A stretch of DNA of 64,000 bases from Mugil cephalus (lineage: Eukaryota; Chordata; Actinopteri; Mugiliformes; Mugilidae): the NCBI RefSeq assembly GCF_022458985.1, contig NC_061781.1, positions 14,907,501 to 14,971,500 on the forward strand. Reading direction: 5' to 3'. Below are positions 1 through 42,659 of the stretch, piece after piece. The notes beneath the pieces were generated by a model, which saw only the letters and a list, made by a program, of their open reading frames with translations, made no database searches and was not told the DNA's origin. Position 1 is the first letter of the stretch. Every line of letters begins with the position of its first letter. Position numbers and translations under genes: made by a program.

Positions 1-3000
1 CGACATGCTTAACACGTGCTGCTGCTCGTGTAAGAGTTTAACTTTGAATTTCCTGGCACTTAAACTCAAAGATCTGCTGGTTGGCAAAGTATTGACTATT
101 TAGATTAGTTTTCACTGGAGTGGAAACCACCTTCACGCAGACCATCAAGTGCTAATTGGTTTGGAATGGACCAAAGGTATCAGGGAACAGATTCCAGATG
201 ACACACCGCTGATGGAAACATCCTTTAAGTAAATGTAGCAGTCGGCTCCAGCCTGCCGCACCATGCTTCATCTGCTCGGGACGTCTGATTACGCAAGCAG
301 TGAGTGCTAGCTGAAGCAAAGGGTTCCTCTGTAGTGTATTCTTCTCTTTAATGAAGTGCACTGCTGCAGTTGCAATTCTGCTCCGGGTCCGTGTGGAAGC
401 TATCCGCCCCGGCCTGCATGTGGGAAAGTATCTGAGGCAGCAGTGTCCCGATGGGTTCAGTACAGATGGCGCAATTAAAAGCGAGCCACAGCAATCCTCT
501 TTTCTGAGCCAGACATATTGGAAAATGAACGGGAACAATGAATCCAGTTTAGAATATTTTACTGAAGTTCACAGAAAACAATATAACTAGCCACAGGAGG
601 ATGGGAAATGTGAGCCGACATCAAAAAATAGCCCAGTAGGTGTTGTTCGGGGATTTCTATATTTTGCTGTTAACTGCAATGTGTAAGTAAAACCGTGTGT
701 TTAAGTGCACACTCTTAGTTTTGTTTCTCAGTGTTAAAACAAGTCATAATAAGTTTGATCAGAACAGGATTTTAACTTTTTTTTAAACCTCAGTGCTTCC
801 CCGATTAACAAAAGCCAAAATCCTAATGAGAGGACGTTGCAAAATAAGACGACCTTGCTCCCTCGTTGATCAGAGACCACTGTGAGAAGTAAACCCGCCT
901 GCCCTGGCACATCGCCCTAATAGGCTGTCTCATCAGTTCAGTGGGAGAAGGTGGGAGTTGTTGTGAATTGCGTTTCCCCTCTCATCGTGGGCTGCTCGCT
1001 GTGCTCCGGAGGTATCAAGACTCTGAGACAAGGTTGGTCGTAATTAATACGGAAATCAAATTCTACCCACTTTGCATCCTCTCTGATTTAATTACTTTTG
1101 TGTTGATTAGCATCATATACCACTATCATCTCCGTGTGACGTATTTTAAACAAGTTATCGCCCGTGCGTCACCTACTGAAAATAGACGCACTCCGTTTTT
1201 TTTTAACAGGTTCGTCTTATTTCCTCTCTCAGTCATTCTTGCCTCAGAGGTCTCATAACGCAGTACATTTCTAATGCTCTCTACTATCACTTTTTTGCAA
1301 CATTGCTAGTTGGAATCAAGTTGTGTTGTTGCGGCAGCGGGACCACAGATGGCTTGCGCACAAAACACTCAGCACATGATTCCATTATGGCAATTAAAAG
1401 AAGACCCGGTGAGCAGAAACTTAATGTTACCTGCTTTGCTTTAATGTATGGCTGAGGGCCATTTTCTCAGCAAGTCCTTATTAAGGACTTCAAGGTGTAA
1501 CCTTCCACACAGTCTCCCCTGTGTTAAGATGACCATTTTGAAACTTCCAAACTCCTCAACTCACGTTTTACTCCTTGGTTATTCTACGTATGTTACACAG
1601 ATGCTATGGTAAGGGCTCCTGCCGAGACCATAGGGGAAAAGTTTCCATCGCTGTCCTTCCATTGATGACGTCTTCTTGGAAAGATGCAAAGTTTGTGTGG
1701 CGACAAGGTTATTTATATCTTATATTTCCACAAACTCGATTCAAAGGACTAATTAGACATTTTTAATCCGACATGCCAGATGGTTTGTTAGACAGAACCA
1801 TCTGGGAAGTTGTCCATGGACACCACTCGGAAAAGAGAGGGCACTTTCAAAAGTACTTGGCAGGTGATTGGGTCAATCATCTGTCGATCACTTGAGAGTA
1901 CACAATGGGAAACACAACAAGCAACAGTCCATCAGTGCAGACGCATATGTAGTTATGTGTGTTAATGATTCTCGACTATTTGTAAGGAACACTTACACAT
2001 AAAAGGTGCTTTTAGGACACATAAAACGTGGCCATAGGTGCCAGCAGTATGGATGGTCATGTGGTTATGTGATCACATGAATCTCGTAGTTCAACTGCCT
2101 CACGATTTAAATACAACCAGCATTCTTTCAAATATGTCGCCCCTTTGTTGTAACTAGATTGGTTTGGACTGTTTTGAGTTTATATCTCCTGACAATCAAA
2201 TTTTCAAATCATGCCATTTCAAGCATTAGCTTCAGCCACAGTGTACCCTCTGATCTGTGTTGACTTGCCCCAAAATGAGCATTGCTCGCAGAACAAATCA
2301 GTCCAAACTTTACAAATCTCTGATGTTTTTTAGTATTTTTTTTAGTATTCAGGCAAGTTCTTGTGACATGTACGGCATTCATTGTCTAGGAGTTATGTCC
2401 ATTTGAAACTGTTTCAAGGGTAAACTGATACCGGCACAAATCCAACCCCATCTCTGGATCCACTCCTTTTGACAATGTTTATTTCTCTCATTCTAGCTGC
2501 TGCTTACGTGACACATCAACTCAGTCTCACGGCAGTTTGTGAAATAATTACGAACTGTCCACAGAGCTCGGTGCGTTCACTAAAGATACTACCAAATGAC
2601 ATAAAGGAATAATTGTAGGTGGAAGCATTTACATGTTCTCTTCATTTTTCAGGCCTGGATACTACGTCCACTTATTTTATACGGGATTAAACAGAGTGTT
2701 AATGTTTTACTTGATTGCTAGCTGCTGGCTGTGGCTTTGTATTCATCGTATCGAAATGAGAGTGCAAACCAAACAGGTGTATCCAGTTGTAATATTACCG
2801 TACGTTTTAGTGTGTGACCAAACCATAAAGTAATATGCAACATGCTCCACAGGAAGAGCAACCAAACTCCATGCGTGTGAACCTTCACACATATTGAAGT
2901 AGTTTGAGTCCTCTTATGTATGTAATTTGTCCAAGTGATCTAATCCCTGTGAATGCAGCCCAGTTCCTGATTAAGTTCTAAACAATCTTAAGTGCTAAAC

Positions 3001-3600
3001 ATTACTTGGTACACTACATAATCAAAGTCTCTCTCAAGATGGCTCTTTGGCTGTCTGTTTGGGTACAAAGTGTTCATTTGTGCCGTGCAATAATCAATCT
3101 GTAAAATGCTAATTAGAGGAAAGACAAGTTGACATTTGTTGCTCTTCAGCTTTAGCTCAAACTGCGCAACAGCAGATAACACAAACCCACAAATAATGAA
3201 CACGGAGTTGCGTCTGAAAATGCTCAGACAAAGGGCACAGGCTAAAAAAGTTCCGAAACACCGAGTCCCGGTCTGCAACAGACACACAGTCTGAGCTGTG
3301 AAGATATGGATCACTGTTTGACAAATGATTATGATGATTTCGATATTCCCCGCAGACAATTCTACTTTTTCATTTCCTGGTAAATTGTCTCAGCACCAGT
3401 GCTGTCCTGGTGGGCTTCCCTCCCGGTCCCGTCTCCATTCTGTGGTTTTATTAAAGCCAACATTTGTCAGCAGGAAGATGGTTGATATGCAAAATGTGGA
3501 GCAGCTCACACCTCACGCTTTAGTAATTCTGGCTGTTTGAGAAATGAGATATGAGGAATGCCCTGCTATGACACAATAGATAAGAGACATGAGTAATGTT
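1..3600. other. Gene desert, left part
   Basis: No coding exon. 120-560 has moderate GC and an ATTACGCAAG (C/EBP-like) word. The rest is AT-rich single-copy-looking DNA with scattered homeodomain words. Longest frames about 105-123 codons, unmatched. Confidence 0.5.
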
Positions 3601-3689
3601 CGGAAGATTTTGATGTGATTGCTCTTTATTATATATTTTTTATTTGTACCTGAGTGTGTTTCAGAGAATAACAATCACAAGAGGGGAAT

Positions 3690-4110
3690 CGCTACAGCCT
3701 CAGCCTGCAAATGTGAGCTATTTAAAAACTATTCATTCAAATTGTAAAATGCATTTATGGAATATCCTCATAGATTTTTATTCAAGTGTTTAGTGAAGGA
3801 TTTACGGAATGCATCCCTTAATTATTTCAAAATCAAAAGAAGATTCTGCTGAATTGCAATAGATAACGTTTACTACAAGGCACTGGAGTGTGAATTCATT
3901 TGCAACCCTCAGCCACAAAATTAATGAACAATTATTTATCACAAATCTGCACCATTCATACTTTTGCCGCACAATGTAATTGCAATTCAAATGTCAGTAT
4001 GCATTAAATGTCACATGATTCCGTTGAAATTAAATGAATCGAACGCCCTCGTGCACATGATGAATAGATGAATATCACTACACTCAACTGTTCCCAACAG
4101 CTTGGGAAGC
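3690..4110. promoter_or_regulatory. Candidate conserved non-coding element
   Basis: CpG-poor, repeat-free stretch dense in AATTAAAT, TTAATG, AACAATTATTTAT and TGTAATTGCAATTC words, the look of vertebrate developmental enhancers. Conservation not tested. Confidence 0.35.
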
Positions 4111-6469
4111 TATTGCGTCTAATTTAATGTTTAACTTGTTTAATGGAAATAATTTACGACCGTTGCGATGTGATGTTGATGAAGATCAGAGCATACTTTA
4201 AGTTATGTGTTCTCATAAATGCTATATATTAAACTGTAACCCAGACATACAGTTTATAATGCTAGTCCATAATAGTATTAATAGAGCCAGTGATATATTG
4301 TTTTTAACTCAAATGAATAGATTTATTTCCCCTCTGATTTTGTTGTCACTAGATCTGCGATACAATAATGTTTAACTGTGTATAGTTTCAAAGCAAGGCA
4401 ATTTCTCGGAATATAATTTGTGCTGGCAAGATGAAGCGAAAGGACCATGCTGTGTGAGGAAATTGTTCTGCTAAGTGACTCTTCCCCTCACATTGCCAAG
4501 CAGCATCTCTCTATATAAATGGCCATTGTCAGGAACACACATCAATCTTGTTGCGTATCGCCACAGAGCCAGGAGGCGAGTCGGTGCAGGCTGCTGTTAC
4601 CAGTCAGAAATGTGTTGGGCTTGTCTCCTCGGGCCATCCCCGCTCTCTACAGTAGAGGCACAAACTGTAGCCACTGTTCTGAAGACTGGTCACTTTCATT
4701 AGAGAAGTCATTAAAGGAATTACAGGAGCCCTGCCATAGATTTTTCTTGCATTATTGTACTCGGATTTGGCTCAGTTCGTCAAGCATGTAACTGAAGTGC
4801 TGCAGCCGGTGCTGCAAAAATGTTTGCCTTCACGTATATTCTCCTAATGTGCGTGGATGTGTGATTTGTGAAAATATAAACACAGAGAATTTAAAAAAAA
4901 AAAAAAAAAAACACGAAAACATTTCTCAGGGAACCTATTGATTCAGTCTTTGGTTTAATTCCACTCATCCCTGAGGGGCTTTTTTATATTTTCGTGCAGA
5001 CAATTATGGTCTCAACTAAATCTGGTGATAGTCTGTGTTTTCCTCACGTAGCAAATCCAGTTAAAGCCCAGAACCAAGAATGACTCGAGTCCATCCTAAT
5101 AATCAGTTTGTAGTGTTTGTGTCTAAAACCTGGTAGAGCTCCTCCGCTCCCTGGAGCTGCAGCGCTGTCAAAATAATACTGAAACGATGATTTGCATTGG
5201 TGATATGAAACTATTCACGGTAGTTTATTTTCCTCCCAATTATCACCAGGGTTCGTAACGCTTATAATCCTCAGATGAAAATAGACTCCAACAAACATAC
5301 GGCTTGCTTTTGTCTGAGTGAGTGTTGCAATAAACAGTTCCAAGTTGTATTAGGAATATACCAGGAATCATCAGGAGAGAAGTTAAATTAGTGCGATGAT
5401 CATAAAATAAATACATTAGATATATTACAAATTGCCAGTACTACACATCCCAGGCAATGCTGCGGTCACCGCCACAATCCCCAATATTGACACAAATCTG
5501 AAAGCTGTCGCTTTTACAGGGGGAGAGCCGTGTGTCATGATTTACAAAGTGTCGTGAGCGGTATGAAGTGATTTTCCGAAAAGGAACTAACCATTTCTGT
5601 TTGAGGTCAATGACGTTATCGTTTTCATATTAAGGCAGAGGTTTTGATTACAAACAGCGAAACCATTTACTTTGTGAGTTCTCTCCACGTAGAAGCTGAC
5701 CAACGCGCATGCAGCATGCGAATCAAAAGCACCCACCAAGAAAAATGTGGCCAGAAACGTGTGTGGAGAAAACCAGAGCTTTGCATAAACCTGTGTGCAG
5801 GACAACGAGGTGGCGTCTGGGTAAAACTGATCATATCAGAAGCTGTTGACTCGGACTGCAGGGTGATCTCCCATGAAGACTAGCTTTAAAGAGTTGGACA
5901 GTTATTGTTCATACTAACACTAAAAGGGAGGTTATGATCATTTATAGAGAGTCGGGCATAAAATTACATCACAATGCTTTTCATTTATTTTAATTTTTGT
6001 TGAAATACTTAAACAAAAAATGTTTGGCAACTGAAACATGTGTCTTTAACTTACTATGTGGGTGGACTATAAATAAAAAAATGCATCCACAGATAGCTGA
6101 GGGACTAACATATCTTTCCTGAAATCCTTTATTTTAGGAACATTCCTTATTTTTTTACATGTACAATAATACCAGAATTATAACACCTCACTCAAAAGTT
6201 CAGATTTCTAACGCTGCCCTGGAGATGGTGGTATAATAACAACCTAAGCATTCGCATCTCTCTTCAGTGTGCTTATGTCTTCAGGGTTTCTTTGTTGGAT
6301 AATAATCAGTTATCATAAAAATGGCATATCTATATGTGTATTTCCACCACGTCCCCCCCATCCACTCATTTTTCATGCTTATATTGTCATGACCTGGAAG
6401 AGTGTGTATTCAGGGGGATGTTTCTGATCTCTTGTCCTGAGCTGTGGAATAATGTAAGAGCACTGGTGT
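4111..6469. other. Gene desert
   Basis: AT-rich. Contains the A homopolymer at 4893 and a patch at 4500-4790 with frames of 75-90 codons that resemble nothing. No gene seen. Confidence 0.4.
4893..4911. repeat. A homopolymer
   Basis: Run of 19 A in AT-rich DNA; no retroposon body recognised upstream. Confidence 0.8.
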
Positions 6470-6600
6470 GTTGCTGCCGCGGCTGGGGAAGCGTGTTGCC
6501 ATAAAATATTAACGACTTGGAAGCCCAGCCACATGACAAGATGAATGTAATTGGCCCTCGCAGCTCTATCTGTGCATGTTAATGAGATGGGATGGTATTT
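6470..6600. promoter_or_regulatory. Candidate conserved non-coding element
   Basis: Short block with GCCATAAAATATTAACG (CCATAAA is a posterior Hox/Cdx-type word), ATGTAATTGG and GTTAATGAGATGG. Inferred from motif content only. Confidence 0.3.
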
Positions 6601-8219
6601 AAATCAGTCGCGCCCCAGACACTGTGGCTGCAGTCTAGAAAACCACAAACAAAGACGCAGGGAGAGAGCATGGATGCAGTGAGAAAGATACCCGAAAATA
6701 TCACTTGCTATTTGGAACTAGGAGGACTAGATTTTCTTCGTATTATTATTATTGTTTCCGGTAGTTTCCGGTCTTTAAATGGTTTGAATTAATGGAAACT
6801 AACGCTGAGATAAATTTGTCTTTCAGACTATGTGGAGGAGATGCTGAGGGTTGAGAGAACCTGTGGACAAAGGCAGATATAAAGGTAAAGGTGTGCACCT
6901 GCACAGCACCTGTCCTGCTATGGAGCCGGGGCCGAGTCCTGCCTGTCATCAGCGGTCTGGAACAAAGCTGCTGCCCCTAAAACAAAATGTGACCACCCCA
7001 GGAGAAAAAACCAAAGGCTGTGGTAACTGCAAACACCGGCCTGGGTCTGTTCTCAGGGGATGAGACGCGGAGAAATGTAGCAGGTAGCAATAACCTAAAT
7101 CCTAAAAGCAAAGAAGGCCAGCTTCGGCTATAAAAAGGGCTTCTGTGCGTAAAGCCTTTCAGATTTCTGGAAAACTGAATGGATAAAAAAGTCGGCAGAA
7201 TGGAAACTGTGTCACTTTACTTTCATTATCCCGACAGCTTTTAGCTTTTATGAGACAGCGCTGTGGTCATCCTCACTGGCACCTCATAAAAACACACTCA
7301 TGCCCCTTGCTTGCAGTCATGTGACGCCGGCTGGACGAAGGTGTGATGTATCAAAGCTCCAGACAAAAATCTTGGCATGCCGTGTTTGTATCTGTGTGTT
7401 TGCGTGTGTGTGTGTGTGCGCGTGTGCACGCTTGTGTTTTTGTGCAGACCGGGAGAGACCCGATGCCAAAGGGAGGGGGAAGTGCAGGCAGGAGGACAGA
7501 TGGTCTCCCTCATGGTGGCTGAAATAAAAGAGGGAATTAGAAGACTCCGAGGTGTACACTCTGACGGCAATTACAGCAAATAGATTGGAAGTGGACCTCC
7601 AGGCACCCGGGGAGACAGCTCTGTGGGGGAGAGCTCCACCTCGCTGCATCTGGTTCGTGCACCTTCGACAGTCGAGACAAAAATAAATAAATTAATGCGC
7701 GAGACAAAACACCTTGTCTCTCCTTTAGCTGAGGCTCACTGACTATTAACATACTGCTGCAGATCAAGTTTCAGAACATAAAAAAAAAATCAAAACAAAA
7801 TAAACTTCATATGCACTACAGAGTTTGAAATGGATTTCTATATTACCATTTTTCTTGGTTTGGATACACGTTTGAAGGATTTGCAAAACCAATTTCAGAC
7901 AACCCTGGGAGCTGCTTTGGTTAGTTATTCTGCTGCCTGCAGGAGTTTGAAAACAGTCAATTATTTTTGTCTTGCTTCCTTCCGCCCATTGATTCTCAAA
8001 CGATTTCCACTGCACCTCCAAGTAAGACTATGCAGCAATTGAATTAAATAAGCCCACCCAATCAATACAAAATACGTAAAACATTCACAGTTCTCTTTCA
8101 TGGCCCGTGGAAAACCGAGAATTCATTGCAGATGAAAATGCAACAACCAAATGAAAGATACTTTTATAGATCTATGGAAACTGTTATGAAGTTTATTGAT
8201 GGCCATCAAATATTTTGAA
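6601..8219. other. Gene desert with TG microsatellite
   Basis: Mixed composition; the TG repeat at 7390 is the only repeat recognised. ORFs at 7298-7767 are shadows of it. Confidence 0.4.
7390..7438. repeat. (TG)n microsatellite
   Basis: Imperfect TG/CG run. It generates several overlapping false ORFs on both strands. Confidence 0.85.
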
Positions 8220-8800
8220 TATAAAATATTTAATGCGTTACTTCTGGCGATGTTTGTGCGCCGAATCCCAAACGCGGTCCGGCTTCCTCCTCTGAAGACG
8301 TTCGGAGCAGTTGGGATGGGCAGATTCCATTAGCTTTGCCCTGTGGCTGAATGAGTGAAATACCATTTAGAGAATAAGTGTCTCTAACCCCAAAACCTTG
8401 TGTTCCCATCAGTGCATAAATGATAAAGACGCAGTCTAATGAAACAAAAGGCTCCCTGCCAAAGTTGGCCATAAAAATAACATTTGGGTGAGAGAGACCT
8501 TAAGCTTGTCCATTAGCCTCAGAAAAGTGTCTTTACTGTTACTCCCACACTGTACGATCTGCAGTGCCAACGCCACTGAAATACACACAAGACAACAGTA
8601 ATAAAAACCTAAGTGATTCAACTGCATCGCTTTATTCCTCCGCGAGGTCCCGGGATTTTTACGGGTACCATACACTGGTTCCGCACGCGGCCAAAATCAA
8701 CATTTAAAATCTCCATTTTATAGGAAATATCATGCTAATTAGTAATTAAACCGACAGTTAATCCTCCCTTTAACAGACACGCATTGTTTAATGTCTTAAT
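8220..8800. promoter_or_regulatory. Candidate conserved non-coding element(s)
   Basis: 8450-8500 has GGCCATAAAAATAACATTTG; 8700-8770 has ATGCTAATTAGTAATTAAACC, with packed homeodomain sites. Repeat-free. Conservation not tested. Confidence 0.3.
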
Positions 8801-11460
8801 GAATGCAGGAGCACGTGCGTGAAAGCAACAGTGGATGCTGCCCTATTAATACGCGGCGAAGTTCTGCACCGCTATCAGCATCTGCATGTGTTCGCATGAA
8901 GATTTACACACCGGGCTTAGAACAAAATGAGAAATCAGGTTTGTATTGTGTACGATGTAAATAAGGCCAACTTTTGGCCTATGAGTTATGGCCTCCAGAA
9001 CTGGCTGCTTTCCCTTGTTGCATATATTCATGAACAGTAAATCACCGGCTTCAGAAAGGAAAACTAATACAAGGAAAGAAAAAAAAAAGTGAAAAGAAAC
9101 CAATGCACAAGCGATAATTAGACAGGGAGCATGTGCGACCAATAAAAATTAGTTATTTTTATCCACATTACGCAAGGATGCAGAGAGAGAAACTCAGAAT
9201 GAGCCCAAACATGCGTGTGTTAATGCTTGAGTGAAAACACATGATTAAAAGTGGATGAATAGAGTTTGTTCAGTGCCGAACAACCGGGAACTATAGTATG
9301 GAAGAGGAGACATGCAAAAACTCAGAAAAAAACAAGAAATACCGTGTTTATAATGTTGCCTTCAGGCGTATTCAGTGCACACTCTCAACACACACATATT
9401 CTTTTCCGAGTTGAAACCTTTTTCTTTAAAGTGATAACGTCTTAACCCCCTGTACAGCAGATAAAAGGTGGTGAGAGGTCTTTATTTTTCCATGTTTTGA
9501 GATTGAATGCGTGGTTTTAAATGCGACTTTAAGTTCATTTGTATCTGTCCCCCGAGAAAGTTCAGGAATCTCTCTGTTTTCTCTTTTTTTTTTTAAAGTC
9601 CGCTTTCTTTCACCTTCTGGGCAACCCGAGGAAGAGCCCTCTCCTTAAGATGTTCCAGATGTTGCTCGTATACTGTACACGAGTACAGCTGCAACTACAA
9701 AATGCTTTCTGTTGCTTTTTATGTGCTTCTGCAGCGCTAGCACGAAGCCTCCTCAGCCGAGGAACGCATCATTTAGCTCAAGATTAAAGATAGATTTTTT
9801 TTTAAGTGGTGTAATTGATATAAACAATATGTCATAAATTTTTTTAAAAAAATGGTCCGATTACTATGGTTTACATAATATGTAATTAACAAATGGTGAG
9901 TTACAGTATTCGTAATGTGTCTTTGAAAGTGAAGCAATCTTGGGGCGCATTTGCTGCCTCTTGGAGAGAAGGAAAACATCTGACCTTCGCCGTACACCGT
10001 GTTTGTGTTGGAATTGAAAGGAGCCTGAGAATTAAATTAAGAAAGTCTGTTGAACTCAACTTGGATGTGGTCGTAAATCACGGACAATTTTTCTCGGAAC
10101 AGGCAAATCCACGGACACGAGACGTTTAAGTCCATTAGAATAAAAAGCCGCAAATGTTTAAATCCAATCCTTTGACTTATTTTTAACTGGCAGTCCTACA
10201 CGGTGTGTTCTGTATATCTTACTGGCACTGCTAGATGAAAAGTGCTGAATATAAACCGACATCATTCAGCTGTGGCTCTAGACTACGTTGTCACGATGGA
10301 AACAACCCTGAAATGTGGGTGTAGGCGGTGAAGTCCAAGTCTGTGACGATCCAGTACAGTTCGAGGAAGATCGGTTAGTTTACTCAATGTGGATCATTTC
10401 TCACATTGTTACACTTAACCTTTCCTCTCTGAGATGTCTGTCCTGTCTGTTGCTGGGGACGAGCAGCAGCTGCAGAAACCTCCCCGTCTGGCTCGGCAAA
10501 CATCCCGCGATAATTTAGGATGCTGACACGAAGTAGGCTTCTGAAATGACCCAGACATCCTCATATATTTTATTTTTGTGTTAATTCTCAAATGAAATAC
10601 TTTATTCTCCTCTTTCTTCACGTCTCCAGTTTCTTTCAAATGCTGCCTCAGACGTCTTCCGTCAAAACATCTGAATATGTGCAAGACATGGTGACGATAA
10701 CTCACCTACACAGTGAGGGCCAAGAACGTGCTGCTGCAGCTACGTAAAGAGGCTTGCCCCCCCCCCAACACACACACACACAAACAAACACACGCAACAA
10801 GCCGGCCCCTTTCGTCTCAAACGTCCTCATCGCAGAAATGTTTAGTTAAATGAAAATGCGCCTTATCAGATATTTGAAGTCTTTAAAGAACTATTCAATA
10901 TCCTCCGTGAATGATTTTAATAGAGTGAGTCATATTTCAGGTGGCCTGCTTTTCAGATTGTATCACTGCTCAACATTTGTCACCTGTCAAATTATTTTCC
11001 CCCCGCATGTCACGTTCATTTGTCAAAACTGCGTTGCTCAAAGTTGCCTCCTGCTTCACGTCCAGCTAAATCAGATTTGGGGAGGAGGGCGAATTTGTAT
11101 TTGGATGTCATATTTATGGTAATGTTAAAATAATAAAGTTGTGCACAATTCTAAATGCAATTTGTCCACGTCCTGATGCATTTGAGCAAACATCTGTGCT
11201 AATGACGGGGGCCGCGGAGTGAGAACGAGCTGTTGAATTTTACAGAGGGGTCGCGTTTAATCAGCCAACGTACAGTACAGCAATTCCACAGGAACAGCTG
11301 CTGCACATATCAATCTTTGCCGATTCGCTTGCCAACAAGAAACAATTGTAGCCTTCAAAAAAGAAAAAAGGAAAAAAAAAACTAAAAAACAATTACATTC
11401 AAAGGCCATGTTACCTGAATTTTTCATTTAACCTTTTCACATTAATGAGAGCCGGACTTG
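8801..11460. other. Gene desert
   Basis: AT-rich, with the C/AC microsatellite at 10757. No gene or transposon recognised. Confidence 0.4.
10757..10794. repeat. C homopolymer plus (AC)n microsatellite
   Basis: Ten C residues followed by AC repeats and AAAC units. Confidence 0.85.
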
Positions 11461-11471
11461 GTCTGAGTCCA

Positions 11472-11485
11472 GACCACCAGAGGTC
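11472..11485 (+). promoter_or_regulatory. CTCF-like motif
   Basis: GACCACCAGAGGTC matches the CTCF core GRCCASYAGRKGGC at 13 of 14 positions, + orientation. Confidence 0.4.
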
Positions 11486-11499
11486 CACGGGCTGCTCCC

Positions 11500-15270: not shown

Positions 15271-15274
15271 TATA

Positions 15275-15685: not shown

Positions 15686-15689
15686 TAAA

Positions 15690-26040: not shown

Positions 26041-26053
26041 CATGAGCTATTAA

Positions 26054-26421: not shown

Positions 26422-26425
26422 TTAA

Positions 26426-30000: not shown

Positions 30001-30229
30001 CTTCAAGGACAGGAAGTTTTTCAATTCTACAAATGTAATCCAGTGATTGCACTCTGATAGAAATGCTATCTTCCTTTGAGATTGTGTGTGTTCCGACTTA
30101 TGAGTCTTTGATCTGAGACCCTTGCAGGACTCCTTTAAATGCTCTTCATGTCCTTCCCCTTGCCGTGAGGCTGTGTGTCTGTGGCCTGTGTAAACACCTG
30201 GCCACCACCGCTGTGAAACGTCTGACCGC

Positions 30230-30800: not shown

Positions 30801-31109
30801 CGAATAGGAATGACGGCATGCCCAACTGCCAGAGCCAAGTGAGGGCTTGAAAAATGGCTCCTCTGCAATTTCAATTAATCAGTTGTATTTCGCTTAATTT
30901 TGTTTGACGTTGGCAGAGGAAACGTCCTCTGGGAGTATCTGTCCTTTGACCACTAATGCTTTAGTAATTCTTCCATCAGTAGAAGCCATGATTGAAACAA
31001 TCAAGTGTGTGTGTTTCCCTGTGTCCGAGAGTGACCGTGCAAAATCATTCAGGGAAGTGTTCGTCCCCACACGTATCCCTTCCTTTCAGCCTACATAGGG
31101 TGATGAGGA

Positions 31110-31650
31110 TGGAGGTTGATTGCAAAGCCCACACAACAGAGAGTGGAACCTGATTAACCTTACAGGTGACTCCAGAAGCATGTGACCGCCACCGCTTCCC
31201 CTCCTCTCCGACCCACAGCCCAGGAAAGAGACGTTGAACTTAACCTCTGCAACAGTGATGAATTAACAATAGAACAATTCAATGCCCCAGTAATTACAAA
31301 ACACTTTGGACAAGGCAACATTTTTCAGCTCTGCCACACAGGTTTGTCGGCATCGGTGGCTTTCACCTGGAATGCTGGGGCTCTTTGCTCTTCCTAACTT
31401 TGTTTTCTCTGACGCAGATTAGATCTGCCACCCCATTACAGATTCATTTTCCTAATTTTTCATGTCTGCACCGCGCCCCATCTGCACAGGGCTGATAATT
31501 GTGGGGACCAGCCCTGGTGATTAACATCAGCAGAATTAATTACGCCCGCCATTAAGGCTCCAGGTTGCACACAATGATCAAGAGAAATTAACTTTCTCCC
31601 AGGCCCCTAAATCATCTCACCTTCAAGTGGAGTGATGGCAAAGAGACAGG
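31110..31650. promoter_or_regulatory. Candidate conserved non-coding element
   Basis: Contains AACAATAGAACAATTC (paired SOX-type words, about 31265), CAGTAATTAC (about 31289) and AGAATTAATTACG (31532-31544) in a long repeat-free block of balanced composition. Confidence 0.4.
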
Positions 31651-32270
31651 CCTAGAGTCCTGGACCCCGCTCAGCACCTTCTTAACCAAACATGAGGTGC
31701 ACATCCTGCCTCCCACCAAGGAGATTATAGCTGCGGCTGATAGGTATCAATTACGCCACCTTATGTGGTGGGATGAGCGAGAAGTGTCCAGGGTCTGGTG
31801 ACTAATGGACCTGGGTTGGAGCCACCCTGCAGCTGGAGACCAGGGAGCTGACTGTTTCTCTGGCCAGGGAGTACCCGCCAGATGCTGAGAGCCTCAGTTC
31901 ATCGGCCTGACACGCAGGTATATATCTACACACCACATTTGACTGTGCACTCTGGAGCAGGTTGGGCATGTGATCGTAGGTTGGCCAGGAAAGGGACTTT
32001 AGTTTGCCATTTCAATCAAGTTTCTCAAAAACAGCCCAAAGTAGAAGGCATGTAAAAGTCTTTTAACCACCCTAAGATATCATATTGTAACAATGCTGAC
32101 AATATGACTATCCATAAATGAGCGCGGCGCCTAGAAACAAGGAGAGTGATGTGTTTGTAAGCTATGCTAATGGACCAGACCCCATGCCCCCGCAGCAGGG
32201 AGAACAGTGGTAATGTCAGTAGGAGATAAGCAAATTGCGTCCGTATCATATTGACTTGTCAAGGTTAAGC
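31651..32270. other. Gene desert
   Basis: No gene recognised; moderate GC. Confidence 0.4.
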
Positions 32271-32274
32271 AGTG

Positions 32275-32520
32275 CGAGCAGGGGGAGGAGTAGGAGGCAA
32301 AAACTCTTCATCCCTCTCACTCCCTCTTTCCTTGACTACTGAAAAAGATGCATGAGAGGTGGGAGAAGCGGGGCGAGGAAGTGAACAAGAAGAGACAATC
32401 CGAAGGAGCTGCGCGCGATCACGCCGAGCAGGCAACAGCCGCACGTTTTCACGGGGAGGGCTTGGCTCGCCGCTCTCATTTACACTGATTTGATTTAGCT
32501 CCACAGGATCTAATTAAGCT
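32275..32520. promoter_or_regulatory. Isolated GC/CpG-rich patch
   Basis: Contains CTGCGCGCGATCACGCCGAG and TCTAATTAAGCTC at its right edge. In the middle of a desert such a patch may be a non-coding RNA promoter. The 79-codon - strand frame is compositional. Confidence 0.3.
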
Positions 32521-34010
32521 CAGACCCAAACCTCTCCGGAGTTTTAGCAGTCATATTGTGAATGTCAGGCTTTGAGAAACAGTCGCGAATGATCAAACCT
32601 GTGCATGCGTTTTGTTTTTGTCTCTTTTTTTTCTTTTCTTTTCTTCCTTTTTTTGTTTTTTTATGAACGCACATCACAGTGATAGAATAATGGCTGTCGA
32701 TGGATATATGGTAATAAAAACTGACAGTTGTTGCGCGTCAGGGATCGTATAAATTTTAATGACAAGAAACGCAATGCAATGTAATAAAAATAATAACCAA
32801 AACAGTAACAATAACGACTCTGACAAGTTGAGTTGCACAAACAATGTATAAATCGCTGTGGAAAAAAAACAAAAAAAAAACAACTCATTGGCTGCACTGC
32901 CTGAGGTTCATCCCATGGTGATTGTCACAGTGGTTCGCTTTCCCTCTAATTAGCTGTAGCAGCTTTGCTTGAATTCGGTGTATAATCCCCTGGATGAGGT
33001 GCAGTCAGCATCTTTCCTTTTCCTAAAAGCACGCGAGGTGCAGTATCATCAACTCCATCTTCGCTCCAACACTGCCTCTGGATGATTTAATAAGGTTAAA
33101 AGACTAGTCAGCAATTACCCCCTGCTCAGTGGAGGAAAACTCTGAAACACAATTGCATTACAGCTGTAGATAAATGCCAGACACCACATCCACAAAGAAA
33201 GTGGCTACCTCCGCCCTTTTTTTAAACCGGGCATAAAAAAAAAGGAGCTTTGGATTTTGCTAACAAGTTATTTCACTTTAGATTCTCTGAGCGTGTTAGT
33301 GTCTCGATCCCAGAGGCTTGTAATGGTCGGAGTGAAACAGTCCAGAGAGTGTCATAGAGTGACATTTACTGCCTCTGCTGTGGGGAAACAGGTAAGCAGA
33401 GCACACCATCTACAAAGTAGTCCCCTTTGACACCGGCACTCTACAAATCAGGGCTGAAGGGCAGGCCAGAATGGGGGCACTGACACAGAGGTCCTTTAGA
33501 GTTCCAGCGTGACCCAGGAATGTGGCAGAGCAAAGGCAGCTGGGGCAGAACAAGCAGACGTCTGGGATTTGTCTGGCACCGTGTTTGATTTTTGCTAACA
33601 CAAGACAACTCAAAGGCAAAGACGTGTCTGGTCAGCGCCTACCCCACAAAGCCCATTCTCTTGCTTCCCGGTGGTAAAAAGTTTCTAACTGGGTTACCCT
33701 CTCCACCACGAGAAGCTCGGAAACTGTTCGTGGGGGGTATCGGCTCGGGCGAAATTAGTCCTCCTAGTTCCACTTATTAGATAATACTTCCTGAATTAGT
33801 GGGGCAGCAGTGATAGCAGGCAGATTTACAGCTCTCCGCGGCGGGCAGCTTACTTTAACGTGGGCCGTGTTAACTCTGCTCATTAAACAGAGGATGTCAT
33901 CACTCCACGCCACCACTGCATGTTACATGTCACACACATCCTCCATAGGCCAGCCTCTGTCCACCTCCGTCCACAACATCCTCTAAATCTGTCATTGCCA
34001 CCTGGGCTAT
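32521..34010. other. Gene desert
   Basis: T-rich simple sequence at 32615-32660, and an enhancer-like stretch at 33040-33190 (GATGATTTAATAAGG, CACAATTGCATTACAGC). No gene. Confidence 0.4.
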
Positions 34011-34039
34011 GGTCCCGCTGTTGACCACACTGCCCCACT

Positions 34040-34320
34040 GGAGCTTTGCACGTGCATGCGGAGGGAGAGACACACGGGCGCTTTGTGTGTGTGTGAGCGC
34101 CGCACAGAGCTTTACACTCAGCCACCGGACGCGTGGGACAGCGGTCGGTCCGTCCACACGGGGTGGGGTGCAGGCACGACGCTCATTACGGACCCAACTC
34201 TGTACACAGGCCAGATAAGCAGAACAGGACAAGATAAGGAAGCGCGGCTGGCTATAGCAAAGTGCAGCCAGATATTCCAATGCCACGGCCAGATGAAACT
34301 CCGCGCTCTCGCATTCACTG
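34040..34320. promoter_or_regulatory. GC-rich patch with paired GATA sites
   Basis: AGATAAG occurs at 34213-34219 and 34232-34238 in the same orientation, 19 bp apart, at the edge of a CpG-containing block. Overlapping ORFs on both strands are compositional. Confidence 0.35.
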
Positions 34321-34329
34321 TGTTTTTTT

Positions 34330-36290
34330 ACTTAAATGAATCATGCAAAAACAAAAAGATATTTCTGTGAGACCGTCCACTTTATCTGTCATTTTACAGG
34401 TCAACAAATTTCAGTTTTAATACCTCACAACTGTACATTTCATCATTATGTTTCTACTGAACATCATATTTACAGGAAATATTTCACAACTTCTTGAATC
34501 TTTGTTTTAATAATATCTGCTTAACATGAGAGAAAGGAACTAATAGCAATGGGCTTTTGGATTAGCTTCAACCTCATGCTTAAGGCTCCCTCCAAAGTTC
34601 TGTTTAAGCATTGCATGTGATTTATTTCCAGAGCACCCACATGCCTAAAACCGTCAAAGTGAGTTTTGAGCAGTGAAAGGGGTCAAGTGTACTTGAATTG
34701 TACCGTTGTCCAAATAAATTTCAGATAATAAATCAAAGTTTTTTTTATATCTTTATGTTTTTTATATCTTTATTATTTCTGCCAACCCTTATAATCAGTT
34801 CCAGCAAATGCAACAATCATTAAATCATTCTTAATGAGTCTGATTCATCTTGTCTATGTTTGTTTTCTCTTTTATCGCAATTTTTTATTCTCACATGTTG
34901 CATTCATTTTTTTTTTTTTTTTTTTAATACCTTGTTCGAATGATTTGTCCATGTCACGTTGACAGCAGACACTGTTTGACAAGAAAAAAATATTTTCTTA
35001 AAATCCTAAAATGCGTTTAAATGCATTGATAGTAATCATTTCTCTAACTGGATAAAGGACCGCGGAGGATTTGCCTGGGTCGACTTGCAAAATGACCCAT
35101 GCCAGCACCGGCTATTATACTACATTAGTCATCGACTCCTGGGACCTTATGCAGACCTTATGGTTATTCTTCTTTAAGTGGAGTATCATCTGATTCAAAA
35201 CATTTACGGAAATGTGCGCATCTGACAGCGCACATGGCCTCTGTGTTTCTTTCTGGGTGGCAGTGTTAAGGCTTGTGAGTGTGAGCTATTTGTTGTGTGT
35301 TTATGAATCCATGCGTTGGGTTTGCTTGTTTTGTGTGTGTGCATCTCTGTGAGCCAATATTGGATCACCAGGTGCGAAGGTCATAATTCAGCCACTTCTC
35401 CACAGATGCAGATAGCACTTACTGTAACCAAGTGGTGCCATTAGACATCGTGTCTGCTGATATTTAGCTGTTCCCTCTCATCCTATAGATTGCGCCTCTC
35501 ATCATCAACAGTACAATCATTCTGGGTGATAGCAAAGCGCAGGGGAGGGAAGAGGAGCCGGCCCTCCAAGATGGATGTGTGTTATTGTTTGTGGGATGAC
35601 AGTGTGTTTCAATCAGGTCCTCTGTGCTCTAATCCCAGGCAGAGCTCTTAAAGTGCTGAGTCAGTTACTGCTTCATCGATCCATCACAGTGGGTTAGTAG
35701 TGGGCAGGTGTACTCCCGAGCTCCCAGGAGACTGAGGAAACACCTGCCCTGCACTGCTCGGGACTTCATCATCCCGCCATTCCTTTGTCTCGTTCTGCCG
35801 GGAGCTCAACGTCGGGCCGCAGAAAACTGTGAAAGCAGCACTTTTGTGGTCGTTTGTTGCCCGTACACAAGAATTAGGAGAAGGGAGACATGGTTTTCCC
35901 TTGCCTCCCACACCTGCCCCCTCCTTTATTTCTCACCCAGGAAGAAGGGACATGCACTGAATGGACCGCACACAACTGCCGTGAGGCTGCACAGATCACG
36001 GTGAGCTTATGCCGCTTAAACAGAGATCACGCGGGGTAACACTACCCAAATCTTCCTTTTATTACAGAGTCCCAGAGTTATCAGAATGAATCCTTTTTTT
36101 TTTTCCGGCAGCAGTAGGACAATGAATTTGGAAGTACGTCGAGAGAAAGCATAGTGGTTATTATTACATCTGAGAGAGGTGCGGCAGCGAGGGGTGAGAG
36201 TCTATGTTTCTCCTGCTGCAGGCAGTCAATTAGTGCCAGAGGGAAACACAGCACTCCTGTGTTGCTCTCTGCTGAGGAGCTGTAAATAAA
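34330..36290. other. Gene desert
   Basis: AT-rich to 35040, then balanced composition. 35040-35240 is repeat-free. No gene recognised. Confidence 0.4.
34907..34925. repeat. T homopolymer
   Basis: Run of 19 T in an AT-rich tract. Confidence 0.8.
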
Positions 36291-36297
36291 GGTTTTT

Positions 36298-36468
36298 ATT
36301 ACACCACACTATCTGCGGCTGTCCTCTGGACATCAATAGGCCAAAGCACTGGACTGTTTCCTCGTATAATCATTTCTCTCCCTTCTTTTTTTCCGCTAAC
36401 AGTCAAAAGAGAGAGCTTAGAAATTCAAAAAAAAAAAAAAAAAAAAAAAGGGTCACAGAAATGCCTGT
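36298..36468 (+). repeat. Non-coding duplicate block A
   Basis: Pairs with 37820-37970 in the same orientation. Over the first 85 aligned bases I count 71 identities. Both contain CACTGGACTGTTTCCTC and end with GGGTCACAGA. Not a recognised transposon; no ORF. Confidence 0.6.
36427..36449. repeat. A homopolymer inside duplicated block A
   Basis: 23 A residues inserted relative to the duplicate at 37.8 kb, where only five A occur at the same place. Confidence 0.8.
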
Positions 36469-36469
36469 A

Positions 36470-37815
36470 ATTCTATCAATGCATTCTTCATTTCTGAAAA
36501 GGATTGACAAAGCAAACCACCTAGAACCCTTTATTGCTCCCTCAGAGCCTTTTGCAGAAAACGTGCGATTTAAAAACTCTTTGTTCGGGCCTGTCTGATT
36601 GTATCAATGCCGAGTGTGATTGTGCCCTTGTATCAGATGTGTAAGAGGAATATGTCAATATTAAACAGCGAACTCGTGTTTGTATGAACATCAGCCTCAT
36701 TTTAAAACAAAACAAACCGAACTACAACAGGACTTAATTACTCACTTATTCCTAATTTATACTAATAATAAAAAAACACAAAGATATCAGAAACAGCTGC
36801 TTTATTCAGGTAGTTGTAAAGAAGTTGGAATATATCATAAGAAAAGGATGTCGTTGCACTTGTTGATGTTAAATTCTTTCATAAATGTTGTAGTAAGTGT
36901 CAATGTCTAAAATACATCTATGTTCATTAAGAACCAGCAGACTGTACTCACTAAATACTCTAATAATAATACTAATAACAATAATGCTTCATACCATGGC
37001 CATATTTAACCAAAACAGTAACTGAAGAGGTTATTACCTCTGATTCTTTGGATGAAGGAAAAAAAACATGGTTTTTGTCTTTAATATGCTTTTGGTTTAA
37101 AAGGCAAATCGTTGTTTCTTGATGGATCCACGTCGTCTTTCAGCTTCCACAGCAGATACACAGGCATGTGTGACAGAAAGAACCGAAATACAAGGCCACA
37201 GTCACCAACTTTAGCTCCTGTAAATTGAATGCTGATTCTATTTATATTTGGTGTGATTTACACCCAGTTTCCTTCTTGCAAGTGAACAGGAAACAGATGT
37301 TAGGAATTGTTCTGTCCCTAAATTCCTCAGAGAGATTTTCAACACCAACATGTGAGGTTGGCTTTGTACTTGCATGCGAAAAGGTAGTAGACAGTGACTA
37401 AATTGACTCCCTGGTTTCCCTGCTCTGAATCTCCATTTCCTCAGAGTTTCCACTTGCGCACGTCCGTCTGCCCAAACCCAGGTTATGGCAGGCCGGCCTC
37501 CCCAATGCAGCCGTGGAGCCAAGTCTATGCTTTCTCAGGACAAGGTCGAACCTTAACACCCCATGCACCCTAGGCAGTGGGAGGTAGCGTTTGTGAAGAG
37601 CACTGAGTTCATAACAATATTTCAGTGATAAATGATAAGGTAAACAGATATGCCTTGTTGTATGTGTTATTACTGTAACCTCCAGAAAATGTTCTAAAAG
37701 TTAGAAATTTAAATCAACCTATCATTGTGCCACAGTCTCTCTAAAGTATGATTGTTCTTTATTGTTCAGCTAATGGGGCAATAGTTAAAATAATGATAAC
37801 AACAATACTAATAAT
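36470..37815. other. Spacer between duplicate blocks
   Basis: AT-rich. A 94-codon - strand frame at 37238-37522 is unmatched. Confidence 0.4.
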
Positions 37816-37819
37816 AAAT

Positions 37820-37970
37820 TATTACACAACACTATTTGCAGATGTCCTCCGGATATGAATAGGCTGTAACACTGGACTGTTTCCTCATATAATCACTCCT
37901 CTCCCTCTTCTTTTTTCCCGACAGCAGTCAAAAGAGACGGCTTAAAAACTCAAAAAGGGTCACAGACAGT
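37820..37970 (+). repeat. Non-coding duplicate block B
   Basis: Diverged direct copy of 36298-36468, about 1.5 kb away, lacking the 23-A run. See block A. Confidence 0.6.
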
Positions 37971-38639
37971 ATAACTGTTTTTTGTTTTTGTTTTTTTGCC
38001 ACAGCTAATAGGCCAATAATAAAAATGTGCTCCCCATAATTACATTCATTATGAAAACAAATAGACTCAACTATAATAAGGTTTTGAGATTACTGCATAT
38101 AATCAAGTGCCCAGAAATGTGACACAAGGGGGGGAAATACTAATTTAGTATCGAGGAATATTGTTTGACATTCAGAAGGTGATATAATTTGAAAATAAAA
38201 GGCCCATCTTTTCATGGACCATGCTGCCATCTAGAGGACACTGAAAACCAAAGACGTATCAGAAACAATATGGCCACTATGTGAAAGGTCATGTTCTTAC
38301 TGTAGTTATTTGCCTGGAGCACATTTCATGCGTATGGGAAAAGGTGGGGTCGTTGACATTGGTCGTGTTTTATTTACATATATGTGATATGTTTTTTGAT
38401 TCACATATTTTATATGTAGTTCTGCAGCTGTATAATGTGTGCTCCTGTTATGTGCAGCATTATGACATGCTGCCACCTACTGTTGGATCACTTCCTATGT
38501 GTAAGACTGATCTTAGGAGACAATCAGTGCAGCGTTCCTATCACTGTCATCAAATAAGGGTGATAAAAAGGTCAACTGCTCGGTTTAATAATACATGCAA
38601 TAAGGTGAGCGTGTGTGTGCGTTTCCCTGCTCCGTGTTT
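37971..38639. other. Gene desert
   Basis: AT-rich. CTGCCATCTAGAGGAC at 38223-38238 is only loosely CTCF-like. A 122-codon frame at 38281-38649 is unmatched. Confidence 0.35.
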
Positions 38640-39110
38640 TCACCCCTGATAAAAACGAAGGGGAAAGGTTATATTAATCTCATCTGTCGCCTCACACATG
38701 ATTTGCGGCCGCTGGCTCCTCCCTCGCAAGATTTACAGTACATGAAATTTTTGCTGACATGGTACTCTTCAGCCGCTCCTCAGATATATGGCGAACCATA
38801 ATTTGGAGGTGTAAAATGGGTATAAAAACCTGTATTAATTATTTAATCGTGGTTCTGCGGTAAGTGCTGCCTTTTAGCCCTGGCGAGGATGTCATCCCCC
38901 TCCATTTTAGCGGGTCGTTATATCACTCATTTGTCAGTGGGGAAAAAAATTACAATCAAGGCCGCGATTGTATGGTTGTATGGTAAATCACGGCAATCCA
39001 AGACTTCTTTATGGGTGCCATTAATTGATAATTGTATTCATTTTTTCTTCATTTGATGTAAATGAACAGCTAATTGCATTTAAATTTTGCTCCTGCGACC
39101 CTGGATTAGT
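38640..39110. promoter_or_regulatory. Candidate conserved non-coding element (strongest looking)
   Basis: Repeat-free 470-bp block with TATTAATTATTTAATCG (about 38832), TTTATGG (39008-39014), ATTAATTGATAATTG (39020-39034) and CTAATTGCATTTAAAT (about 39070). Includes TATATGGCGAACCATAAT. Typical of Hox-landscape enhancers, but conservation was not tested. Confidence 0.45.
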
Positions 39111-42100
39111 CCGAAGATCCAGCGTACAGCCCTGATAAATACCCCAACCTGCAGCCACAAAGCCAAAGTTGCACATTTAAGAACTGGTTTTCTAAAATGG
39201 CACGTGAAACCAAAAAGCACAAGGAATCGAAAATGTGCGTGGCAGGCAGCATTGTGTGGGACCTGTGATATATCTTTGTGTCAGGGGGCAGTTAGGTACA
39301 GAGACTGAGGGGTGTGATCAACAACCAAACAAACATGTTGTTCAGAGGTGAGGGCGAGGAGGTGTACACAGAGCATCCATCAAACTACATCTGCGAGAGG
39401 CTGATACTGTTCTGTTTACCCTCGCTGCACTCTGCTCATCCTTTTCTTGCAAATCCCAGATGAAAACTTTCATTATGGGATGGTTTATCCGCCGTGACTT
39501 CTAGGCATCAGTCGTGTGGAAACAAGTGTCTCTTGGATATAATGGCAACCAGCATGTCCGCCTGCTTGTTTTTCTTCACCTGCAAGTTACACAACAGCTA
39601 CTTGATTAGCCTGATAAAAGGTCAAATGCCTGTGTGCCAGTGTTAAAGCTGCTACTCATGTTTCTGTCTATCATTGCACATTCTTCAACTTGATTTCTGT
39701 CTCAGCGTAGACAATTACACACACATAGGTCCTCTTGCACATGAATAAGACATGAATAAACTTGGCAACGGTGTGAGAAGATATAAGAAATATATTAGAT
39801 ATTTTACTTACATTAAAGTCACTATAAAAATGTATTTAAAATGTGACTGAGCTCTGTAGAATAAGTAAAAATCCATCATTCAAACAAAAAGCACATTGGC
39901 AAAGTACACAAATACATTTGATGTTAACGTTTTTTATGGAGGCAGGCTTGCTCCTTCTCTGCGTTCATGCACATTATTACATTACTGTATTATTATACCA
40001 GGAATATTAATGCGTTTGCCACTTTTTAATGTTGCATCCGGTGAAGTTGGGTCTAATTCTAACTCTGTTAAGTTTTAACTTTACCAAGTTTCCAGATTCG
40101 CTACATCATGCACTTTATATAATACTAACCTCCAGTATAACGATATAGTTGTATAACTGTCAGCTGTCAGGTTACTGGAGTATAAAGTGTAATATAATTC
40201 CTTCTTCATCGTAGTACAGTATATAATATGGCATAAAACTGGCATAAAGTTGTAATGTCTCCAGAATCTTCAAAGGTACAAGTATAATGTATGTATTTTT
40301 CATTTCTTTCCTCTTTTGGACATTAGGTAAAACATTTCATGGACTGACATGATTTCATCAGTCTGTTAAGTGATGTCATCAACAAAGTTCTTGTAACACT
40401 TGATGCTATTTTTCTTAAGCTTGTCCACGCAGACACATGGTCAAAACTTGAGACAGGCATAATGTTGCTGTACTGCTGTACTTCAACAACAGTGACACAG
40501 GCTTCAAATCACTGTGACATCTGTCTTACCAAAGAGCCATCCGGTGCAAATGGATAGAAATGTATTGCTCTTTATTGTCAGCAACCATATGACACTACGT
40601 TCACACACAGTAAACCTTTCAGGCATTAAAACATCCGCTCTAATAAGCTGTCAATTGTAAATGTCCTTGCTCTTTCACATATTTTTAAGATAATAGTAAT
40701 AGAAATAAAATCAGTGTTGCAATCCATGAAAAATAAAGTATTATCTCTAAGCAAATACAATAATGGCAGTAGGATAACGGGAACAAAATCCAGACTGGCT
40801 CTTGAATTTGAACTATGGTCTGATCATAAATACTCATCATTAACAGTGTCAGAAAAACATTACCCTTTTTATTGGGGCTGTATATTCCTCACATACCACA
40901 ATAAAGTTAATGACAGACATTGTCCAAGCCATAAAACAGTCATATATTTGGAGATGCTGGTCAGCTTCAACAAGGCTCAGTCGCACCTGGCTCATAGATC
41001 AAACTTATACCCAATCAAGTGTCCTCATCGCAGAGATCTAATTTGAAAATACAGATGCATGTCTCGTTCCCACAGCTCCAGCTGACAACAATTTAAATAT
41101 TTTCATTTGTGTTCTGTGGATGTGTGACCTGAAAACTGCATGCCGTGTGAAAATAGAAAACTGAAAAGCATGAGTGCCACAAAATAACATCTTGTAAGTA
41201 CAAAAACCCTGCACTGAATATTTTTGTCTATGACAGTGGGGTGTGCTGTGTTTGTGGTCATAATATTTTTCTTTGTTGTTGCACACGCCACTATGTCTTT
41301 TTCAGTCTAATGCAGATTTGCTGTGTTTGTCATCATAATTTGGAGCCGTTCCCTTTTGCCAACAATGGGTTTTTGTGTTGCCTAAAACTGATGCACTAGC
41401 ATGACCCTGTTACTAGTAGACACACTCTCAGTATGCTCCTTTAGTTTGAACACACACATATAACAATACTATGTTAAAGGAGCACAAATACATTTATAGC
41501 AGGCTATCAATTGCTGAAATTATTCCACTTTATTTGTGTGATTTTAATCCGTTTCAGTGAGTTTTGATGGGAAAAAAAAAACACACAACAGGACAACAGG
41601 AAAAACACATTAAGCAGTGTCCATTGATAAAAATAAATTACTATGGATTTGTATGTGTGGTCACAGCAGCACTTGTATTACTCTTGCTGAAAATACTGTG
41701 CATGCAGAAACTGCCTCGTACCCACCACAGCTCCTCTGCACACCTCCTTTAGAGGTCACGTCTTGCAGGGGTTTGTAAGGGCATTGTGTTTCCATCTGGC
41801 TCATCGCGTTCACACTGTGCATGCAGATTCCAACATAATGGTGGCTATAATCAAATCACCACAAACTAAATTAATTCCACCACACGAACAATGGTTGCAC
41901 TGAACTCAAAGGGAAGAATATATCACGATTTGCAAAGCATCGTATGTCAGCCTCTCTTAGAGTCCCACAGAATTTTTCTTAACCCCAGTGGCGCCATAAC
42001 AAGTTACAGTACTTAGGCCACACAGAAAAATATGATTTAAGTTGTATGTACACTGATATTCAGTCGCTTTTGGTGCACAAGCATGACATCGGGACAATGC

Positions 42101-42240
42101 TGTTGAATCTGCAGAGCTTCTCAATGCTCGTTTGTGTTTATTTAAAACTACAACGTCTGCATTTTTTCTTTCTTGTGGACTGGGATCTGCTTGAAAGATT
42201 CAGCCTCTGTATGGAGAAAATGTTCAAGGCGTGTTCCTCT
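39111..42240. other. Desert to hnrnpa3 promoter
   Basis: AT-rich intergenic DNA. Frames up to 110 codons, none recognised. A 102-codon - strand frame at 42347-42655 abuts the promoter and could at most be part of a divergent non-coding transcript. Confidence 0.4.
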
Positions 42241-42244
42241 ATCA

Positions 42245-42258
42245 CCAGTAGATGTCGC
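42245..42258 (+). promoter_or_regulatory. CTCF-like motif upstream of hnrnpa3
   Basis: CCAGTAGATGTCGC matches the CTCF core CCASYAGRKGGCRS except at one position, + orientation, about 490 bp before the hnrnpa3 start codon. Confidence 0.4.
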
Positions 42259-42659
42259 AAATTATCATAGTTTTCATTATTCAACTCGAGGCAGTAGTAA
42301 AGAACAGAGTGTACTCAACTAGCTGTGCAACTACCTTTGATATACATTATGTTTTGTCTAAATATGTGCATGCGTCAGCCATACACGCTTCATTGAGCGT
42401 CTGTAGGTAATTGTAAACCAAGACGAACTTGAAAGGAAGCTGATCTCGCGATAAAGGTGTGACAGGTATGTGGTGACGACAGCAAGAAGGGTTCTGATTG
42501 GTTAAAGGCAGACAGTCTAAGTAGGTGAAAGTCGAGTCAAGTGGATCACCTGCCAAGTATGTTTTCTTTTTAAGTTCAAAGCCCTTTCCAGTTTTCAGAG
42601 TGTCAGGAAATTCTGTGAATAATAAAAAGAACAGTTTATAAGTCCAACTATCCATGTGT

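Follow-up and report, generated by a model that had tools for sequence, protein, structure and literature searches.

The gene desert between hoxd3a and hnrnpa3 in Mugil cephalus and the probable distal part of the hoxda telomeric regulatory landscape

Introduction

Does the long gene-poor DNA that precedes hnrnpa3 in the mullet Mugil cephalus correspond to the mammalian desert that separates the HoxD cluster from HNRNPA3, NFE2L2 and AGPS, and does it serve the hoxda cluster of this fish? The window considered here, that is, the whole stretch of 64,000 nucleotides that was analyzed, covers positions 14,907,501-14,971,500 of contig C12 (NC_061781.1) in an assembly of 634.8 Mb in 24 contigs (GCF_022458985.1). 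Window coordinates are used throughout, with negative values for DNA left of the window. A preliminary description, made from the window alone, had taken its left two-thirds for the compressed fish counterpart of the distal end of that desert. Our analysis of the window, its flanks and the remaining Hox clusters of the genome leads us to consider 1-42,745 as very probably belonging, as its distal portion, to the 3' (telomeric) regulatory landscape of a teleost hoxda cluster.

The Cluster Left of the Window

The left 100 kb and a further 20 kb were searched with Hox, MTX2 and other landmark proteins. Whether this flank leads to hoxda or to other genes had been set as a test of the preliminary description, and the flank does lead to the hoxda cluster. 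Six Hox homeodomains were found left of the window, all on the plus strand, in an order that ends in groups 4 and 3 with group 3 nearest to the window. The first of them, taken for hoxd12a, lies at -92,814 and is followed by three others at -86,610, -81,111 and -77,685, by the group 4 homeodomain of hoxd4a at -64,068 (100% identical to the group 4 query) and by a homeodomain taken for group 3, hoxd3a, at -54,270 (75% identical); group numbers other than 4 and 3 were assigned from order and precedent. On the minus strand, evx2 is located near -104,128 (94% identity over 48 residues), and mir-10 is found near -65.96 kb, upstream of hoxd4a.

Genome-wide, a search with the group 4 homeodomain returned at least 114 matches, with 150 of the 203 candidates scored. 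The Hox-like matches obtained in this way form seven groups, located on C1, C11, C12, C13, C14, C16 and C20, which we assigned to putative hoxca, hoxab, hoxda, hoxdb, hoxaa, hoxbb and hoxba clusters, respectively. This assignment rests on how many matches there are and how they are spaced, on evx-like matches and on matches of the nfe2 family on C1, C14, C16 and C20, and not on a tree. Among the matches scored, hoxdb was seen and a second hoxc cluster was absent, which, together with the 24 large contigs, makes a percomorph probable. The C13 group consists of two matches only, one of group 4 and one taken for group 9. Since evx2 and six Hox genes are present on C12, and C13 shows a reduced hoxdb (group 4 and the assigned group 9), the cluster left of the window is, judged by its gene content, hoxda and not hoxdb. 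An assignment of the window to hoxdb, or to a different Hox cluster, finds no support once the flank has been read; the hoxdb candidate offers two Hox matches and mtx2 against evx2 and six Hox genes on C12, five further clusters lie elsewhere in the genome, and we give this alternative practically no chance.

Within the cluster, hoxd13a appears to be lost, as a HOXD13 homeodomain gave no match better than an expect value (E) of 0.6 in the interval from evx2 to the hoxd12a-like gene (-104,128 to -92,814). In four other clusters, the end-most match was taken for group 13 by position only. A candidate for lnpa at -118,252, where an LNPK fragment matches with 62% identity over 16 residues, was too weak to call.

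Extent and Gene Content of the Desert

The gene-free interval extends from the hoxd3a stop codon (-53,563) to the hnrnpa3 start codon (42,746) and measures 96.3 kb, so that the full desert occupies -53,562 to 42,745; the joined stretch between -54 kb and the window contains no N. Because the flank comprises evx2, six Hox genes and mir-10, followed by ~96 kb of gene-free DNA up to hnrnpa3, the desert is the 3' landscape of hoxda, known as the telomeric domain (T-DOM) or 3' interaction domain (3DOM), and the window contains its distal 44% (1-42,745). On the far side, hnrnpa3, nfe2l2 and agps follow in the order first described, on the plus, minus and plus strands, respectively. The same order and strands are found in mammals, which supports the claim that the interval is the fish counterpart of the mammalian desert.

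The earlier observation of more than 42 kb without a recognisable exon was borne out, since codon-usage scoring, Pfam and Rfam, a combination of limited power, detected no exon in 1-42,745. The gene-free state thus stands, but the end originally given for it, 42,650, falls ~100 bp short of the start codon at 42,746. Codon-usage scoring, trained on 847 codons, is a weak test: its peak between -53 kb and 42 kb was 22.7, and the same DNA reversed reached 29.1. The main nfe2l2 exon scored 61.9, a value that is not independent because this exon belonged to the training set, and an nfe2l2 exon of 49 codons outside the training set scored 28.6, which is below the reversed control, so that short exons could be missed. 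Pfam searches of 16 of the 38 frames of at least 90 residues ending before 42,650 gave no match at the curated cut-off and two matches below it. Rfam at gathering scores returned nothing in 1-42,745 and a single family (mir-148/152, outside the desert) in the whole window.

Relics of mtx2 at hoxda and an Intact Copy at hoxdb

The preliminary description had placed mtx2 at the proximal end of the desert, and in this respect it has to be corrected: an intact mtx2, whose exon blocks match the query with up to 89% identity, instead adjoins hoxdb on C13, and the desert is bracketed by hoxd3a and hnrnpa3. A working Mtx2 gene beside the cluster, which is the customary landmark in tetrapods and is not required for the landscape, was not found at hoxda. 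Between hoxd3a and the rest of the desert, however, protein-level matches revealed two degenerate mtx2 exons, at -44,357 to -44,295 and at -41,569 to -41,519, which are consecutive exons of the gene, kept in order on the plus strand. With a human query they score 61 and 73, compared with best scores of 37 and 40 in a reversed-DNA control, and the next-best places in the desert reach 41 and 38, or 45 with the fish's own first exon. At the DNA level, none of 500 shuffles reached the match of the second relic; 91 of 500 reached that of the first, so that the first relic does not stand out in this comparison. Protein searches of the left flank showed no further mtx2 exons on C12. We therefore rejected the view that the C12 matches represent an mtx2 gene: they are degenerate relics, the intact copy being on C13, and the working mtx2 is, as read from these remains, lost at the hoxda copy.

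The differences from the C13 mtx2 at the first, second and third codon positions amount to 7, 8 and 14 of 21 each for the first relic and to 4, 2 and 10 of 17 each for the second. The pattern of the second relic points to a long period of protein-level selection before the loss. It might be speculated that the hoxda landscape recruited the relics as switches and that they have survived for this reason, the living mtx2 staying with hoxdb; we consider this unlikely. The codon-position pattern would be compatible with such a takeover and is more simply explained by late gene loss. Exonic remnants left by genome duplication were reportedly treated in a 2010 paper, which may already list the mtx2 relic; one narrow literature search met no mention of an mtx2 relic at hoxda in the portions of the papers that it covered.

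The position of the intact gene agrees with published accounts of other teleosts. In the HoxDb cluster of the cichlid Astatotilapia burtoni, the order is hoxd9b, hoxd4b, then mtx2, as on C13 in the mullet; in zebrafish, mir10-Db is flanked by lunapark b and metaxin 2. The HoxDa cluster of A. burtoni, which is alike as well, measures 53 kb from evx2 to hoxd3a, with lnpa as the sole further gene on the bacterial artificial chromosome (BAC); the part of this account that was consulted ends short of hnrnpa3 and mentions no mtx2 relics beside hoxd3a. In the 60 kb beyond the mullet hoxdb, queries with HNRNPA3 and AGPS gave no match. Cadherin-domain open frames are present on C13 at ~22.035-22.042 Mb, ~42 kb beyond mtx2 (Pfam PF00028 in two of the three frames tested).

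Orientation of CTCF-Like Motifs

Binding motifs for CTCF were scanned in regions over 274 kb with the JASPAR matrix MA0139.1 at a score cut-off of 13. The first 194 kb contain 20 CTCF-like motifs; dinucleotide shuffles, of which 20 were made, gave 5.25 on average and 10 at most. From evx2 to hoxd12a, all four motifs (-101,931, -97,897, -96,424 and -95,544) are on the minus strand and face the centromeric domain (C-DOM). From hoxd12a to upstream of hoxd4a, three plus-strand and no minus-strand motifs were found, all facing the desert; one of them (-92,695) lies inside the hoxd12a homeodomain exon, which leaves two of two without a coding match. No motif occurs from hoxd4a to hoxd3a. In the desert, all seven motifs are on the minus strand and face the cluster (one-sided sign test 0.008, the motif list having been seen before the regions were drawn). 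Three of the seven lie left of the window, at -5,254 (21.4, the strongest cluster-facing motif), -5,714 and -10,189, and four within it, at 13,166-13,184 (14.9), 26,073-26,091 (15.8), 38,222-38,240 (18.9) and 38,468-38,486 (17.6), the latter two being the last cluster-facing motifs before hnrnpa3. A motif at 42,242-42,260 (16.5) lies on the plus strand, 504 bp upstream of the hnrnpa3 start codon, and faces away from the desert; together with those at 38,222 and 38,468 it forms a divergent group that is a candidate domain border.

Elsewhere, one plus- and one minus-strand motif were found on the C-DOM side, two plus-strand motifs and none on the minus strand from hnrnpa3 to nfe2l2 (42,242 and 51,009, the latter in nfe2l2 coding DNA), one plus and four minus right of 56.2 kb, and two plus and one minus in the hoxdb flank. 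In mouse, four posterior CTCF sites of the cluster face C-DOM and all but one of the others face T-DOM, the anterior domain is without sites, and the CS38-41 sites face the cluster. The motif layout of the mullet cluster and desert resembles this published mouse layout.

Does the Desert in the Window Carry Regulatory DNA?

A number of results weigh against a regulatory reading of the interval and have to be set beside the orientation of the motifs. The prediction, written beforehand, that the motifs on the C-DOM side face the cluster failed (one of two), and the cluster-facing share in the desert weakens at lower cut-offs (8 of 9 at 12, and 12 of 15 at 11). Moreover, the layout had been noticed before the regions were drawn. 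Motif counts did not bear out the enhancer-like blocks announced in the preliminary description, as they barely set the desert apart from control DNA, for which the hoxdb flank and the agps region were used. TAATTA, PBX-HOX, posterior-HOX and MEIS words are more frequent than in shuffles in at least one half of the desert, but for several of these words, as well as for an E-box control, the same was true of both control regions. The desert is only slightly richer in PBX-HOX words (1.17 and 1.15 per kb in its two halves; controls, 0.99 and 0.80) and in posterior-HOX words (0.71 and 0.70; controls, 0.48 and 0.63). TAATTA (0.69 and 0.62 vs. 0.53 and 0.66) and MEIS words (0.86 and 1.11 vs. 0.99 and 1.34) are not clearly denser. 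Motif richness, not being specific to the desert, was dropped as a sign of enhancers.

No single-copy co-linear block was common to the desert and the 60 kb that adjoin hoxdb on its 3' side. At E 0.01, the hoxda region and the hoxdb flank share 11 rows, seven of them within the desert. Of these seven, two are simple repeats, and in the other five the query DNA, or DNA adjoining it, matches two places on C13; the four rows outside the desert are located within the cluster, next to it, or past nfe2l2. Among the candidates scored (the best 39 of 7,123 for 1-20,000 and the best 39 of 218 for 20,001-40,000, so that rarer copies may escape), only three places within 1-40,000 showed copies elsewhere in the genome. 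The DNA at 15,271-15,608 is repeat-like and matches one other place, on C16, next to a copy of the repeat at 17.4 kb. The latter, at 17,380-17,841, is an interspersed repeat that recurs on at least 19 of the 24 contigs, and the proximal desert holds DNA related to it at two places (~-47.5 to -46.7 kb; ~-40.8 to -39.5 kb). A further interspersed repeat occupies 20,246-20,737. The distal desert also contains a direct duplication, with copies at 36,296-36,431 and 37,819-37,956, 1.5 kb apart and 83% identical over 138 columns.

If the hoxda landscape ended in the proximal desert, 1-42,745 would be mostly inert spacer in which the ancestral gene order was kept by chance. The failure to find block-level conservation against the hoxdb flank, the motif counts that hardly separate the desert and the repeat-like DNA at three places in the window would fit such a spacer, as would the location of the strongest cluster-facing CTCF-like motif (-5,254), with those at -5,714 and -10,189, just left of the window. 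However, cluster-facing motifs run on to 38,468 and the opposite orientation first appears at 42,242, and the mouse T-DOM reaches Hnrnpa3 and holds in its telomeric portion the most potent proximal-limb enhancers in the test concerned. We regard the spacer as decidedly unlikely.

Regulatory DNA in the window might, on the other hand, serve hnrnpa3 or nfe2l2 and not hoxda, for which adjacency is the sole argument. The hnrnpa3 gene encodes a broadly expressed RNA-binding protein, and genes of this kind rarely depend on distant switches. In mouse, Hnrnpa3, Nfe2l2 and Agps form a separate small domain that is unaffected when the HoxD region is deleted, and service to hnrnpa3 or nfe2l2 is in our view very improbable.

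Enhancer function of the desert for hoxda is likely by orthology, because enhancers have been described in the mouse T-DOM, a 3' contact domain at zebrafish hoxda and activity of a pufferfish 3' HoxDa BAC in mouse limb buds. We infer loops, a border and enhancers of the following kind. Enhancers spread through the desert would contact the promoters from hoxd3a to hoxd11a, many of them acting together. The contact domain would be held by loops between the cluster-facing CTCF sites of the desert and the desert-facing sites of the central cluster, and the contacts would end at a border at ~38-42 kb, at the divergent motifs, leaving hnrnpa3, nfe2l2 and agps outside. The landscape would drive hoxda expression in the fin bud, the trunk and other embryonic tissues.

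Comparison with Known HoxD Landscapes

The closest known system is the mouse HoxD T-DOM with its CS39, CS65 and PLE enhancers, which is alike in being a desert 3' of the cluster ended by Hnrnpa3, Nfe2l2 and Agps. At the motif level, the two loci are also alike in the orientation of the desert CTCF motifs toward the cluster and in the flip near Hoxd12. They differ in size, with ~0.9 Mb covered by BACs in mouse and ~96 kb in the mullet, and in that Mtx2 is a working gene in mouse and a relic here; furthermore, only six Hox homeodomains were matched in the fish cluster. Among fishes, the zebrafish hoxda cluster has been reported to show a 3DOM by circular chromosome conformation capture (4C), a CNS65-like sequence lies ~200 kb from zebrafish hoxda, and a Tetraodon 3' HoxDa BAC drives Hoxd genes in proximal limb buds of the mouse. 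The zebrafish 3DOM and the interval on the Tetraodon BAC correspond to the desert described here.

Since the possession of a 3' hoxda landscape by fish has already been published for zebrafish and pufferfish, the mullet locus is useful and not surprising. The mtx2 relics are its sole unexpected part, and the remainder is the expected counterpart of a well-studied locus. Its value lies in its dimensions: a gap-free hoxda landscape of 96 kb on one chromosome is small enough to be deleted, to be tested block by block and to be carried on one BAC, manipulations that are hard for the large mouse desert. Because the landscape is short and gap-free, the locus is suited to asking which HoxD proximal-limb switches fins and limbs have in common. 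Deletions of 3DOM and 5DOM were reportedly made in zebrafish in a 2025 paper.

Genes Beyond the Desert

The first gene past the desert, hnrnpa3, has its coding span at 42,746-46,298 on the plus strand, with ends set by eye. In comparison with human HNRNPA3, identity is 79-88% in three blocks and 60% in a fourth that spans an intron; the best-matching solved structures are those of HNRNPA1.

The coding span of nfe2l2 occupies 49,973-55,945 on the minus strand, its outer ends having been set by eye. The exon for the basic leucine zipper (bZIP) lies within 49,964-51,190 on the minus strand and has NRF2 as its best PDB match (1.8e-43). The translation also carries two motifs that we take to be the DLG-type and ETGE motifs. 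A genome-wide nfe2l2 search, in which all 19 candidates were scored, gave eight matches, namely the one close nfe2l2, four located in the neighbourhood of other Hox clusters and three of lower strength; the genome thus seems to lack a second nfe2l2 copy.

Between nfe2l2 and agps, at 59,516-59,588 on the plus strand, a microRNA precursor of the mir-148/152 family was identified (Rfam RF00248, 78.5 bits). The first exon of agps was placed at 61,302-61,497 on the plus strand by eye only, with no Pfam match, and matching agps exons on the same strand begin at 64,772, just beyond the window, in the right flank. Farther into this flank, at 81,325-84,603, three agps exon matches are present twice, ~1.76 kb apart, which suggests the tandem duplication of a short group of agps exons.

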